Origin: Terriglobia bacterium
Lineage (GTDB): Bacteria; Acidobacteriota; Terriglobia; Terriglobales; Acidobacteriaceae
DNA length: 41,910 nucleotides
Assembly: GCA_021325035.1 (NCBI GenBank)
Contig: JAJPHW010000021.1
Coordinates: 1-41,910 of the forward strand
Direction: 5' to 3'
The translations under genes and the position numbers were made by a program. Below the pieces are notes generated by a model, which had not been told where the DNA came from, did not search any database, and saw only the letters and a list, made by a program, of their open reading frames with translations. Positions 4,898 through 13,697 of the stretch are shown here, piece by piece. Numbering within the stretch: position 1 is the stretch's first letter; each line of letters starts with the position of its first letter.

Positions 4898-5695
4898 TTG
4901 CCGACCGACCGCACATTAACGGACGAAATTCAAAGCGCGCCAAAAACCGTGACGGAGCGGCATTACGGCTTTCTCAGCCTCTTGCGCTCATTTTTAATTT
5001 TCGATCCCATCATTTGGGCATTCACTGTAGTTCTTGGCGTTCTCGCTATCCCTGTTTCGCTTTTCGGCGAAAAAGAACGCATTTTGCACAACTTTGCGCG
5101 CTTCTGGTCGTGGCTGATCATGAAGACGATTCAGTCGCCGACTATGGTTACTGGCCTCGACAAAATTGACACGACCAAGCCGCACGTCTATGCCGTGAAT
5201 CACGCCTCGGCGCTCGACATTCCTGTTTTATACGTCTATCTGCCGTTTCAATTTCGTATTGCCTTCAAGAAAGAATTGCTTGCGTACCCGATTGTGGGCT
5301 GGCATTTAAAGCGCTCCGGGCAAATCTGCATTGATCAGCAAAACTCTGCGCGCTCCATCAGCAGCGTGCGCTACGCTCTTAAGAGTCTCAAGCATGGCAT
5401 GCCGTTTGTGATTTTTCCCGAAGGCGGCCGCACACCGGATGGCGACATAAAACCCTTCATGGCGGGAGCATTTTTTCTTGCCATCAAAGCGCAAGTGGAT
5501 GTCGTTCCGGTGGCCCTCGTTGGAACTTATGAGTTATTGCCCATGAATACCTACCACATCAAATCACGGCCTTTGGAAATGCGCGTAGGCGCGCCAATAT
5601 CCACTGAGGGTCTTACGTTGCGCGATATGGAAAGCCTTTCCGCCAAAGTGAAAGCCGCGATGAAAGAGCTTTATTACTCCGAACGAAAGAAATGA
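4898..5695 (+). CDS. plsC: 1-acyl-sn-glycerol-3-phosphate acyltransferase (PlsC family)
   Basis: 265 residues. It carries the acyltransferase motif I NHASALD (H102-x4-D107) and the motif III part FPEGGRTPDGD (about residues 171-181), which bind the catalytic base and the glycerol phosphate. Hydrophobic stretches near residues 30-55 would anchor it in the inner membrane, where it would acylate lysophosphatidate to phosphatidate. The start is a TTG at 4898, 6 bp after the folC stop, with no good Shine-Dalgarno sequence; no ATG lies near. Related families (lysophospholipid acyltransferases) share these motifs, so the acceptor is inferred. Confidence 0.88.
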   Translation: MPTDRTLTDEIQSAPKTVTERHYGFLSLLRSFLIFDPIIWAFTVVLGVLAIPVSLFGEKERILHNFARFWSWLIMKTIQSPTMVTGLDKIDTTKPHVYAVNHASALDIPVLYVYLPFQFRIAFKKELLAYPIVGWHLKRSGQICIDQQNSARSISSVRYALKSLKHGMPFVIFPEGGRTPDGDIKPFMAGAFFLAIKAQVDVVPVALVGTYELLPMNTYHIKSRPLEMRVGAPISTEGLTLRDMESLSAKVKAAMKELYYSERKK

Positions 5696-5699
5696 AAAC

Positions 5700-5749
5700 G
5701 TAGTGGCAGGCGTCCTCACCTGTCGAATCTAAGACCCGCCCTACACAAT
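5700..5749 (+). repeat. Degenerate copy A of the stem-loop repeat
   Basis: Between plsC and the M2 peptidase gene. It starts gtag (5700-5703) and closes ctac (5741-5744). The first arm (ggcaggcg / cacctgtc around a TCCT loop) pairs imperfectly. It resembles the copies at 7587, 12471 and 13099 but lacks a recognisable second arm. Confidence 0.5.
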
Positions 5750-7586: not shown

Positions 7587-7635
7587 GCTTGTGTAGGGGC
7601 AGGTGTCCTCACCTGCCCATTTTAAAAATTCAAGC
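7587..7635 (+). repeat. One-armed copy B of the stem-loop repeat, possible terminator
   Basis: Begins gcttgtgtagg (7587-7597) and has the perfect first arm ggcaggtg-TCCT-cacctgcc. It is followed by ATTTTAAAA, and a short caagc at 7631-7635 can pair with the initial gcttg. It lies between the convergent peptidase and binding-protein genes, where a hairpin plus T/A run could end transcription from both sides (inference). Confidence 0.65.
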
Positions 7636-7640
7636 AAAAT

Positions 7641-8861
7641 CTATTGCGTTACCACCGTCGCCCAATTTTCAAAGATTTGCGGCTTTCCGCCCCGCACCAC
7701 AGTGGGATAAACGTGACTCAATCCTTTATGGCGTTGCGGGCTAAACTCCAGCTTGGATGAACCAAAACCGATGTCAAAGTCATGCAATGATTCAATGCCT
7801 TGTATGAACTTCTCGCGTGTCGGAGTCGCCCCAGCCCGCTTCAATCCTTCTGCAACGACCATTGCATCCACGAACGCTTCCAGACTGACAAAACTGGGTT
7901 GTGTTCCAGACATATACTTCGTCAAGCTGTCCTGATACAGCTTTACCGTGGGCAAATCGAGCCGGTCGTACGGAGGTACTACCTGCGTAATGACCATTCC
8001 CTCGGAATCCTTGCCTGCCGCGGTAATTAAGGCTTCGGTCCCGACGAAGGAAACGGCTAAAAACACCGGCCTCCAACCCTGCGCATGCGCCTGTTTCAAG
8101 ATTTCAGCCGCGGGCGCATACGGCCCGGCCAGTACCACCGCTTCCGGTTTTGCCGCGCGCACCGCAGTAATTCCTTTACCGACATCAAGCGTGTTACGCA
8201 CAAATGAACCGGTCGCGGCCAGCTCTGCCGAATGTTTGGATAACGCCAGTTTCACGCCATCCAAAATCGCTTTGCCGAATCCATCGTCCTGATAGATGAC
8301 AGCAATCTTATGAACTCCGGCAGACCAAAGATTATCCACCTGTACTCGGGTTTCATCTTCGTAAGAGGCGCGGATATTGAAAATCTCAGGTTTCACTGGC
8401 TCATAGAGAAATTGCGCGCCCGTTAACAGCCCAACAATGGGCACGTGGTCGGCCTCCGCCAGCGGTAAATATTTCGCGGCTGTCGGAGTTCCCACGAAGA
8501 ACCCGCCGGCAAATACCTGTTCTTTCTTGAGGGAGGCAAAACATCCACTGGCTTTCTCGGGATCGTAACTGTCATCGAATGATGATAGGTGCAGCTTGCG
8601 GCCATTCACGCCGCCGTGATCATTGATGTAATTGAAATAGGCCGTTGCTCCCAGAACCATCTGCAACCCAAGCTGACGGGCTGGGCCATCCAGAGCCGAG
8701 CATGACCCAATCTTGATTTCACTTGCGTTAATTCCAGGAGTACTTTGGGCCGCCAATGTTCCTAAGAACCCAAAAGTAGAGAGGAGACACAAAACCGCTA
8801 AATGCGGCCAAATTTCACCTGAATGTTTGAACGTTCGACCCAGACCCGAAGACATGCCCAT
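7641..8861 (-). CDS. ABC transporter substrate-binding protein (Leu/Ile/Val-type, Peripla_BP_6)
   Basis: 406 residues. The start is the ATG at 8861, because an AGGAG Shine-Dalgarno sequence lies 7 bp before it; a longer TTG start at 8882 would begin upstream of that site. After a signal sequence (hydrophobic about residues 14-35, cut near LAAQS) come the family marks EIKIGSCSALDGPARQLG, YFNYINDHGGVNGRKL and VAVIYQDDG-like (here IAVIYQDDGFGKAI), typical of branched-chain amino acid-type binding proteins. No permease or ATPase gene lies beside it, so it is an orphan component, and the ligand cannot be told. It is transcribed away from thrS. Confidence 0.88.
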   Translation of the reverse strand: MGMSSGLGRTFKHSGEIWPHLAVLCLLSTFGFLGTLAAQSTPGINASEIKIGSCSALDGPARQLGLQMVLGATAYFNYINDHGGVNGRKLHLSSFDDSYDPEKASGCFASLKKEQVFAGGFFVGTPTAAKYLPLAEADHVPIVGLLTGAQFLYEPVKPEIFNIRASYEDETRVQVDNLWSAGVHKIAVIYQDDGFGKAILDGVKLALSKHSAELAATGSFVRNTLDVGKGITAVRAAKPEAVVLAGPYAPAAEILKQAHAQGWRPVFLAVSFVGTEALITAAGKDSEGMVITQVVPPYDRLDLPTVKLYQDSLTKYMSGTQPSFVSLEAFVDAMVVAEGLKRAGATPTREKFIQGIESLHDFDIGFGSSKLEFSPQRHKGLSHVYPTVVRGGKPQIFENWATVVTQ

Positions 8862-12470: not shown

Positions 12471-12533
12471 GCTTGTGTAGGGGCAGGTGTCCTCACCTGC
12501 CCAGCCGAGGATAGCCAGCTTCTCAGCTACAAT
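12471..12533 (+). repeat. Two-armed copy C of the stem-loop repeat, next to the tgt start
   Basis: Starts gcttgtgtagg and has the perfect arm 1 (ggcaggtg-TCCT-cacctgcc). A second arm agccgag / ctcagct has one mismatch. The outer closure is tgtag (12476-12480) / ctaca (12527-12531). It ends only a few bases before the tgt GTG at 12540, and its last bases form TACAAT (12528-12533). Confidence 0.65.
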
Positions 12534-12539
12534 CCCTGA

Positions 12540-13697
12540 GTGTCCCTGCAATTTCAGATTGATTCGACTTCCGGCCCTGCTCGCCGCGCCCGCCTCATCA
12601 CTCCACATGGCGAAGTCGAAACACCAGTTTTTATGCCGGTGGGAACTCTTGCTTCCGTAAAAGGCATTCCGCAAGACATTCTCGAAGACCTCGGTGTTCA
12701 GATCCTTCTCGGCAACACTTATCACCTCTATCTCCGCCCCGGCGTTGAGCAAGTACGCAAACTCGGCGGGTTGCATGGTTTTATGGCGTGGCCGCGGGCC
12801 ATCCTCACCGACTCCGGCGGGTTTCAGGTCTTCAGCCTCAACGAACTGCGCAAAGTTTCCGAAGAAGGCGTGACGTTTCGTTCTCATCTCGATGGCTCCT
12901 CGCATTTTTTCAGCCCGGAAAGCGCGATGGACGCGCAAATCGGCCTCGGCGCGGACATCATCATGGCCTTCGATGAATGTACGGAGTATCCCGCCGACGC
13001 GAAACGCATGCGCGATTCCATGGAACTGACGCTTCGATGGGCCCAGCGCAGCAAAGATCATTTCGAAGCGCATAAGCACGAAGTACCGTGGAATGTGCGT
13101 GTAGGGGCAGGTGTCCTCACCTGCCCAGCCGAGCACAGCTCGGCCACCCAGACGGGGACGTCTGGGCCTACACAAGCTTTGTTCGGCATCATCCAGGGTG
13201 GCATGGATCTCGCATTACGAAGAGAATCCGCTGAGCGCACCATCGAAATCGGCTTCCCCGGATACGCCATCGGCGGCCTCAGCGTAGGCGAGCCCCGCCA
13301 TCTTACCCGCGAAGTCGTCGAATCTACCCTGCAATTTCTTCCCCAAGACAAGCCGCGTTATTTGATGGGCGTGGGCACTCCCGAAGAAATCGTGGAATAT
13401 TCCAAAATGGGAATTGACATGATGGATTGCGTCCTTCCCACCCGCGCCGCCCGCCACGGCTTGCTGTTTACTTCCGAGGGCAAAATATCCATCAAACAGG
13501 CGCGCTATGCCGCAGATAACGGCCCGCTTGACCCGAAATGCTCCTGCCGCGTCTGCAATCGCTACTCCCGGGCCTATTTGCGCCATCTTTATGCCTCCGG
13601 CGAGGTCCTGGCGCAGGTCTTGAACACCATCCACAATCTGAGCTACTACCTTGACACTATGCAGCGGGTGCGTCATTCTATTGAACTTGGGGGCTAA
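12540..13697 (+). CDS. tgt: tRNA-guanine(34) transglycosylase (queuine TGT) with internal repeat
   Basis: 385 residues. Tgt swaps guanine 34 for preQ1 in tRNAs with GUN anticodons, a step in queuosine synthesis. Evidence: the TPVFMPVGTLASVKG start, LTDSGGFQVFSL with the catalytic-base Asp91, ALFGIIQGG, GLSVGEP, MMDCVLPTRAARHG, and a zinc site CSCRVCNRYSRAYLRHL. The start is GTG with no Shine-Dalgarno sequence, right after repeat copy C. Residues about 186-212 (VRVGAG to SGPTQ) do not belong to the family: they are the translation of repeat copy D, in frame, between the helix ending HKHEVPW and ALFGIIQGG. The enzyme probably tolerates the loop, but activity is not shown. It starts the conserved tgt-yajC-secDF order. 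Confidence 0.95.
   Translation: MSLQFQIDSTSGPARRARLITPHGEVETPVFMPVGTLASVKGIPQDILEDLGVQILLGNTYHLYLRPGVEQVRKLGGLHGFMAWPRAILTDSGGFQVFSLNELRKVSEEGVTFRSHLDGSSHFFSPESAMDAQIGLGADIIMAFDECTEYPADAKRMRDSMELTLRWAQRSKDHFEAHKHEVPWNVRVGAGVLTCPAEHSSATQTGTSGPTQALFGIIQGGMDLALRRESAERTIEIGFPGYAIGGLSVGEPRHLTREVVESTLQFLPQDKPRYLMGVGTPEEIVEYSKMGIDMMDCVLPTRAARHGLLFTSEGKISIKQARYAADNGPLDPKCSCRVCNRYSRAYLRHLYASGEVLAQVLNTIHNLSYYLDTMQRVRHSIELGG
13099..13173 (+). repeat. Complete three-armed cloverleaf repeat (copy D) inside tgt
   Basis: 75 bp, a multiple of three. Outer stem gtgtagg (13099-13105) / cctacac (13167-13173). Arm 1 is ggcaggtg (13106-13113) / cacctgcc (13118-13125), loop TCCT. Arm 2 is gccgag (13128-13133) / ctcggc (13139-13144), loop CACAG. 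Arm 3 is cccagac (13147-13153) / gtctggg (13160-13166), closing further with a g-c pair over GGGA. All stems are perfect. The flank aagc at 13174-13177 matches the reverse complement of the gctt that opens the other copies. Confidence 0.9.

Follow-up and report, generated by a model that had tools for sequence, protein, structure and literature searches.

A three-armed REP pair lies in frame in a recurrently filled loop of tgt in Acidobacteriaceae

The DNA cloverleaf at 13099-13173 of the window (the whole stretch of 41,910 nucleotides of Terriglobia bacterium DNA that was analysed) is an inverted pair of GTAG-footed REPs of two types with one shared middle hairpin, that is, a REPIN or BIME in a "clover" fold. 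It lies within tgt, in a loop that is a recurrent insertion slot in this family. We consider it highly probable that the element is a mobile REP heterodimer which was placed by a RAYT and is translated in frame in tgt, and that the slot has been refilled across the family. The element itself is mostly ordinary, a new example of an already known sort; the tgt loop is the unusual thing beside it, and was overlooked in the preliminary description of this DNA. The host gene and the parts of the element are as follows.

12540-13697, plus strand: tgt, queuine tRNA-ribosyltransferase, 385 aa, open through the insert (Pfam and PDB homologues)
13099-13173, unstranded: whole element, a head-to-head GTAG REP pair (types A and B) with one common middle hairpin and a three-armed fold
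13099-13104, plus strand: left foot and 5' side of the closing stem, with GTAG at 13101-13104 (sequence and fold)
13105-13126, plus strand: hairpin 1, REP type A, GGGCAGGTG/CACCTGCCC (fold, covariation and covariance model)
13128-13144, plus strand: hairpin 2, the middle stem-loop, GCCGAGC/GCTCGGC
13147-13166, minus strand: hairpin 3, REP type B, foot GTAGGCCC (fold and model match C87:13128-13171, minus strand)
13168-13173, minus strand: right foot and 3' side of the closing stem, with GTAG on the minus strand at 13171-13168

The element was read from the sequence and then folded, and consists of 75 bases forming three hairpins and a closing stem. In the RNA fold, GTGTAG (13099-13104) pairs with CTACAC (13168-13173) to give a closing stem of 6 bp, and hairpins 1, 2 and 3 have 9, 7 and 8 bp with the loops TCCT, ACA and GGGA respectively; in the DNA fold the closing stem gains a seventh pair, by which hairpin 1 loses. 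The place and the three-armed shape had been given correctly in the preliminary description, but it gave 7 bp for the closing stem and 8, 6 and 7 bp for the hairpins, sizes that need correcting by about one pair, and loops of 4-6 nt where the fold has 4, 3 and 4 nt. Folding of 13080-13190 gave a minimum free energy (MFE) of -61.7 kcal/mol (z -6.15) as RNA and of -34.2 (z -5.99) as DNA, and none of 200 dinucleotide shuffles reached the stability of the element in either fold. The element lies inside tgt, and its RNA is predicted to fold within the tgt mRNA, as had been supposed.

Each half of this structure can be recognised as a REP by itself. The motif GT[AG]G stands at the 5' foot of a palindrome of 20-50 nt both at 13101-13126 and, on the minus strand, at 13171-13147, and the two units are separate covariance-model matches (C87:13101-13144, plus strand, and 13128-13171, minus strand). 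The left unit is of type A (foot GTAGGGGC) and the right unit, on the minus strand, of type B (foot GTAGGCCC). In many other copies a stem-loop of the hairpin 2 type comes after the REP hairpin; here it is common to both REPs. Two inverted REPs in one folded unit, as in a REPIN or BIME, make up 13099-13173, and the closing stem is merely the two GTAG feet of the inverted pair.

Further copies occur in the host genome and were found by BLAST, by pattern search and by covariance model. A 111-base query gave 20 BLAST matches, of which 12 span hairpins 1 and 2. In register, the unit consists of a GTAG foot, a 9-bp hairpin, one base and a 7-bp hairpin of the GTCGAGC/GCTCGAC type; the pattern count in the host genome was 33, compared with 8 for a reversed control pattern. 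The covariance model gave at least 55 matches at E<=0.01, a number that takes in the model's own 15 rows and is a lower bound since 150 of 2013 first-look candidates were scored.

The stems of these further copies covary, more weakly when the copies are not chosen by their pairing, and the element thus withstands the check that the preliminary description set for it. Across 15 aligned copies, the rows of which were picked by a pairing filter, 9 of 16 pairs have changed on both sides and the covariation score is 0.377, compared with 0.159 +/- 0.020 after shuffling (reached in 0 of 500 shuffles). The unfiltered retest used 19 of the 20 BLAST matches and left out the twentieth, whose match is to a different stretch of the query. 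Here the share of cells that pair is 95.3% for helix 1 (mean of the shuffles 91.9, maximum 94.2) and 69.9% for helix 2 (mean of the shuffles 54.9, maximum 65.4), so that the excess of pairing lies above all 1000 shuffles, yet is much weaker than in the filtered set. Many dispersed copies with compensatory stem changes are what is expected of a REP of the GTAG super-family, and both are found, the changes less strongly in the rows picked by BLAST.

Three of the four copies in the window lie outside tgt, 2-15 nt past ORF stops.

12475-12527, plus strand: single type A REP, 15 nt past the upstream stop, between a T2SSE-type ATPase gene and tgt
7591-7627, plus strand: single REP, hairpin 1 only, 8 nt past the stop of a Peptidase_M2 gene
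5698-5746, plus strand: degenerate REP, 2 nt past the stop of ORF 4898-5695

In the copy at 12475 hairpin 1 is present and hairpin 2 is broken, and only 13099-13173 has three arms. REP matches occur in 30 of 200 family genomes, a count that takes in the host's own and for which mostly 4 candidates were scored in each, and all 21 loci with exact REP matches in a named genome collection belong to Acidobacteria/Terriglobia/Terriglobales MAGs. Two more three-armed A/B pairs were found outside tgt, at L232 (genome G063), where the arms have changed and still pair, and at L076 (genome G071), where they are less perfect. In all, 819,660 bases of loci, a set with overlapping loci and rich in tgt, hold 10 distinct head-to-head pairs of 55-170 nt, six of them in tgt.

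In relatives as well as in the host genome, RAYT genes adjoin such REPs or are enclosed by them, which makes recognition of the element by a transposase, as had been proposed, plausible. Among three Y1_Tnp matches in the host genome, one is a REP-associated tyrosine transposase (NCBIfam NF047646, 89.7 bits, cut-off 80), the Pfam match of which ends about 150 bp from an inverted REP pair (C50:8458-8501, plus strand, and 8529-8572, minus strand). This pair adjoins the gene on one side and has GTGG rather than GTAG feet. The other two host Y1_Tnp genes (L009 and L011, on contigs C51 and C91) appear by eye to be truncated or degenerate. Y1_Tnp matches occur in all 12 relatives examined, which were picked for their REP content, and RAYT ORFs of 161-166 aa reach 81.6 bits (G063), 89.6 bits (G071) and 88.2 bits (G066) against NF047646. 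One type A and one type B REP enclose the RAYT gene in G063 and G071. In G066 type A REPs are the closest neighbours on both sides, each followed farther out by a type B. Relatives thus hold Y1/HUH RAYT genes flanked by inverted like REPs, the RAYT-REP arrangement or REPtron, and in the host the GTGG-footed pair adjoins the gene on one side. Given the order A-RAYT-B in G063 and G071, the window element corresponds to the ends of that unit minus the gene. Judging by published TnpA-REP biochemistry (parts of PMC8266576), we infer that the element arose or moved by RAYT action. In another relative, G080, a RAYT ORF (L156:2876-3262, minus strand, 85 bits) with REPs on both sides was seen directly upstream of tgt, and the tgt loop next to it also contains a REP.

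The host gene was identified by Pfam TGT on the ORF 12540-13697 (494.8 bits, residues 14-383 on profile positions 3-341). PDB homologues match the query as far as residue 181 and resume at residue 212, on either side of the insert, which thus lies between two conserved segments. Chain 1ozm, of the Zymomonas type, leaves query residues 182-211 unmatched and has three residues of its own between. The element is in frame and adds about 20 residues between HKHEVPW and QALFGI (QALFGIIQGG). An AlphaFold model of Tgt made from 3 sequences had a pLDDT of 38.7 and was unusable.

We compared 101 tgt loci, 100 of which have both halves of the gene, from 96 distinct genomes: 86 of the same family (its own included) and 10 of an order-level outgroup. 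Four loci from genomes already represented (L086, L090, L156 and L163) and one locus without the second half (L108) were dropped from the counts. All 100 two-half loci are in frame without a stop in the linker, with linkers of 3-85 aa, and the five stops elsewhere are natural gene ends; the loci were drawn from protein matches, so that broken genes without a recognisable match are missed, and 38 of 398 family genomes without a protein match are outside the set. Linkers are 3-10 aa long in the outgroup (10 of 10 loci) and 5-85 aa in the family. They reach 20 aa or more in 71 of the 86 family genomes and 31 of 45 genera, counts that are biased to length as most loci were chosen by a match to an insert-holding query or by a long match. 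The fair sample is a draw of one relative per genus (24 same-family relatives, 22 with both halves), and here 9 of 22 have linkers of at least 20 aa, the only count free of length bias; 19 of these lengths were measured and three (G003, G008 and G022) were judged short from match coordinates only.

What fills the slot differs widely. The inserts include REP pairs, tandem 7-mers and their inverse (for example QYSVPSTQYSV..., SSFQFPVS... and VVSGRWSVVS...), SAVSRQ and RFAQDDN types, and others without evident repeats. Along 533 bp 3' of the insert, the sister genomes G349 and G327 have 95% nucleotide identity, and their inserts, of 51 and 25 aa respectively, are unrelated. Two inserts (G349 and G373) were tested for dispersal, and in both the arms are dispersed repeats. 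A G349 query of flank and insert gave from at least 5 to at least 51 matches per genome in 11 of 11 genomes of g7 and g36, with at most 40 candidates scored per genome; among the matches listed, nearly all of those beyond the tgt locus fall on the REP part. The G373 insert gave 24 matches in G373 and 37 in G341 (tgt copies included), fewer in G370 (8) and G345 (3), and none in G388 and G006, two of the six same-genus genomes searched. On a tree of 96 Tgt cores, a three-state insert class changes at least 27 times, at least 25 of them within the family; support is weak at many forks of this tree, with stars on only 23 of its 93 inner branches, and the insert classes are rough.

The REP feet that remain in the slot show considerable order. 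All 20 family feet (9 of 9 GTAGG and 11 of 11 CCTAC) are in one frame, which for GTAGG is partly forced, as one of the two other frames would read TAG. In 6 of 9 GTAGG linkers (g10, g35, g56 and g57) 12 nt separate the VPW codons from the left foot, and in 9 of 11 CCTAC linkers (g7, g10, g35 and g57) the right foot stands 18 nt before the linker end. In three mosaics (L116, L133 and L107) one REP half is kept and other sequence replaces the other half. The constant offsets and the mosaics suggest an old REP pair that has been overwritten or nested into, despite the other offsets and swapped types of the host copy: the feet of the host (G000) are off the commonest offsets by one codon on the left and five on the right, and its A and B stand in the reverse order to those of g10, g57 and L121 of g35. 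A GTAGG or CCTAC foot is absent from 80 of 96 linkers; the 16 counted as having one include one chance outgroup hit (L065). The first REP classifier, which also gave 16 of 96, was too strict, missing GTGG feet (for example in L146), and includes one chance outgroup hit (L066). Among inserts of one kind, the sisters L119 and L129 were seen to differ, in that one seems to hold a further insert within the first.

The insert-prone character of tgt was compared with one control gene, ThrS, from the same window. Insertions of 10 aa or more are absent from 16 of its 23 same-family loci, a pattern unlike that of the tgt slot. At residue 42, towards the N-terminus of ThrS, the remaining 7 of 23 loci (L257-L263) have a common insertion of 24-28 aa, similar in sequence and not repeat-like.

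Tgt was also considered as the sole gene with such inserts, a notion that we rejected as Pfam spacing suggests REPs inside other genes, where they are likely to occur. On stop-to-stop ORFs and Pfam domains, used in place of a gene caller, host REPs fall inside a domain region in tgt and in a Clp-type ATPase. In the latter (L028:1-1509, contig C202) a REP-like palindrome at 1036-1060 lies in frame within the AAA_2 domain (HVGADAPVRPTAKS), as judged from the Pfam domain position and the translation. Relatives have apparent intragenic REPs in MnmE (L167:1096-1120), a PUA/methyltransferase gene (L079:1501-1525) and an M61 peptidase gene (L166:7774-7798), cases that are called by domain position alone, without comparison to empty orthologues. 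Two of these three hosts are probably RNA-modification enzymes like tgt, and this may be chance. Six further long ORFs were scanned: one is another tgt (L156), two (L158 and L169) have their domains away from the REP, and three (L036, L170 and L171) gave no Pfam match.

Based on these results, we propose that the cloverleaf is a non-autonomous mobile element made of a type A and a type B REP set head-to-head, a REPIN/BIME heterodimer that would have shrunk until both REPs shared one middle hairpin. The GTAG feet and hairpins of the folded single strand are probably what is recognised by a RAYT, an HUH/tyrosine transposase that acts on single strands and would once have put such a pair into the tgt coding sequence. 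As the pair can be read in frame, the ribosome would translate it, giving an intact and presumably active Tgt with a loop of about 20 extra residues, which the loop appears to tolerate. Across the family, various sequences, several being interspersed repeats, would then have filled the slot, overwritten its contents or nested in it, in a way that is probably near-neutral for Tgt, with selection acting mainly for frame and the absence of stops.

The closest competing account is that one ancient REP pair entered the tgt of an ancestor and that only its inside has been overwritten since, without repeated insertion. The left foot at 12 nt in 6 of 9 linkers, the right foot at 18 nt in 9 of 11, the single reading frame of all 20 family feet and the one REP half kept by L116, L133 and L107 would all follow from this. 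It fits less well with the other offsets and swapped A and B of the host element, with the 80 of 96 linkers that have neither foot, and with at least 25 within-family changes of insert class on the Tgt tree, many forks of which are weakly supported; we regard it as possible and on balance doubtful. A bolder view of the slot takes the Tgt loop to be a landing pad across Terriglobales, preferentially entered by palindromic mobile DNA, where translated loops in rapid exchange alter the working or timing of Tgt; entry may be via single-stranded DNA or with the old REP pair as target. We think this unlikely. Were it true, the loop would serve as a natural slot for peptide display, supplied by non-autonomous transposable elements.

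The remaining alternatives concern the RNA. If the insert were a functional RNA structure kept in the tgt mRNA, such as a pause or attenuator between the protein halves, and no passenger, the stable fold of the element would be expected, as would the MFE z below -3 of 30 of 76 linkers of at least 60 nt (5 outgroup linkers included) and the fact that several unrelated kinds of insert are themselves inverted repeats; but z is -2 or higher in 41 of the same 76, 13 of the 22 one-per-genus linkers are shorter than 20 aa and too short for a multi-hairpin element, and two sister species have unrelated inserts. This makes a conserved RNA function very unlikely. Still less probable is that the insert is untranslated, being bypassed by the ribosome as a byp element is, or cut from the RNA like an intron. 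A strong hairpin within a conserved enzyme gene is all that speaks for it, and the open frame of 100 of 100 linkers of 3-85 aa, which bypass or splicing would not need, favours translation; with every linker examined open and in frame, the intron or bypass reading is disfavoured. Least credible of all is a tRNA-like or tRNA-derived cloverleaf, perhaps a mimic of the Tgt substrate, although it has three arms and a closing stem and its host is a tRNA-modifying gene. ARAGORN found no tRNA or tmRNA genes within the window and Rfam gave no matches at gathering score, ruling out a tRNA or tmRNA gene or a known RNA family. Both REP units match the model separately, the same arms occur singly elsewhere, and the closing stem is only the two feet of the inverted pair. 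Of the two ideas in the preliminary description, that of a transposase is well founded and the tRNA analogy is not.

The mobile REP heterodimer in a refilled tgt slot matters beyond this gene. Palindromes in genes have mostly been reported as scattered cases, whereas here the same few codons of a housekeeping enzyme are refilled across species with different sequences and the frame kept. Such loops form a natural series in which to study whether mobile DNA supplies proteins with new peptide segments, whether an existing REP draws in more elements, and how much a tRNA-modifying enzyme can tolerate. In Acidobacteriota, moreover, GTAG REPs of two types are now placed around RAYT genes. The phylum figures in parts of the 2013 and 2018 surveys cited below (PMC3733652 and PMC6006769) with Koribacter tyrosine transposases that have unrelated terminal repeats and with class 3 genes that have CnGA-footed structures in Solibacter. 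The open-access literature searched, supplements excluded, yielded no publication on tgt insertions, and a limited search of that literature gave no report of a single enzyme loop reused by unrelated repeats.

The comparisons with known systems draw on parts of the papers cited. The layout, described beforehand as rarely seen in bacterial repeats, is not alien to them: a REP-pair "clover" was named by Bertels and Rainey 2011 (PMC3116915), who describe the inverted REP doublet as a mobile unit with clusters that adjoin RAYTs. The clover configuration in the legend of their Fig. S11 corresponds to the fold of the tgt element. The REPINs of that paper are given as extragenic, with a single long hairpin as a possible fold; the tgt element joins arms of two REP types, and its MFE fold is the clover. 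The 2018 survey of HuH endonucleases (PMC6006769) reports in-frame REPs inside tnpA-REP genes and "double foot" REPs, and explains compact REP pairs by central deletion of an inverted dimer; the tgt element differs from "double foot" REPs in its host gene, tgt, and in keeping both hairpins with a third between them.

Two further systems bear on the coding position and on the turnover of the slot. Rickettsia palindromic elements (Ogata et al. 2000, 2002; reviewed in PMC10969869) are mobile palindromes translated in frame inside protein genes, and the tgt element, an in-frame palindrome with the tgt ORF open through it, would be like them if it is translated. They belong to another phylum and are about 150 bp long, and we do not file the tgt element among them. 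Tobes and Pareja 2006 (PMC1525189) describe REPs as hot spots for insertion sequences, and an established REP that draws further insertions could explain the mosaic inserts of the slot; their cases concern insertion sequences, whereas the tgt slot holds short sequences, with no transposase tied to the non-REP inserts.

The nearest precedent is Di Nocera, De Gregorio and Rocco 2013 (PMC3733652), where GTAG REP dimers are set head-to-head, some of them intragenic, and in-frame REP inserts code for 20-30 residues in many genes, tRNA pseudouridine synthases included. "Queuine" and "ribosyltransferase" are absent from the main text of that paper. The REPs described there are like the tgt element in the GTAG foot, in forming inverted dimers of like or unlike REPs, in their in-frame inserts, and in the stem-loops of some dimer spacers. 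Those inserts are mostly single cases, with one Xanthomonas species pair that has REPs near the same recB site; in tgt, many genera have refilled one and the same loop. REP dimers in frame were thus known already, and what is new is one conserved enzyme loop that unrelated sequences refill again and again.
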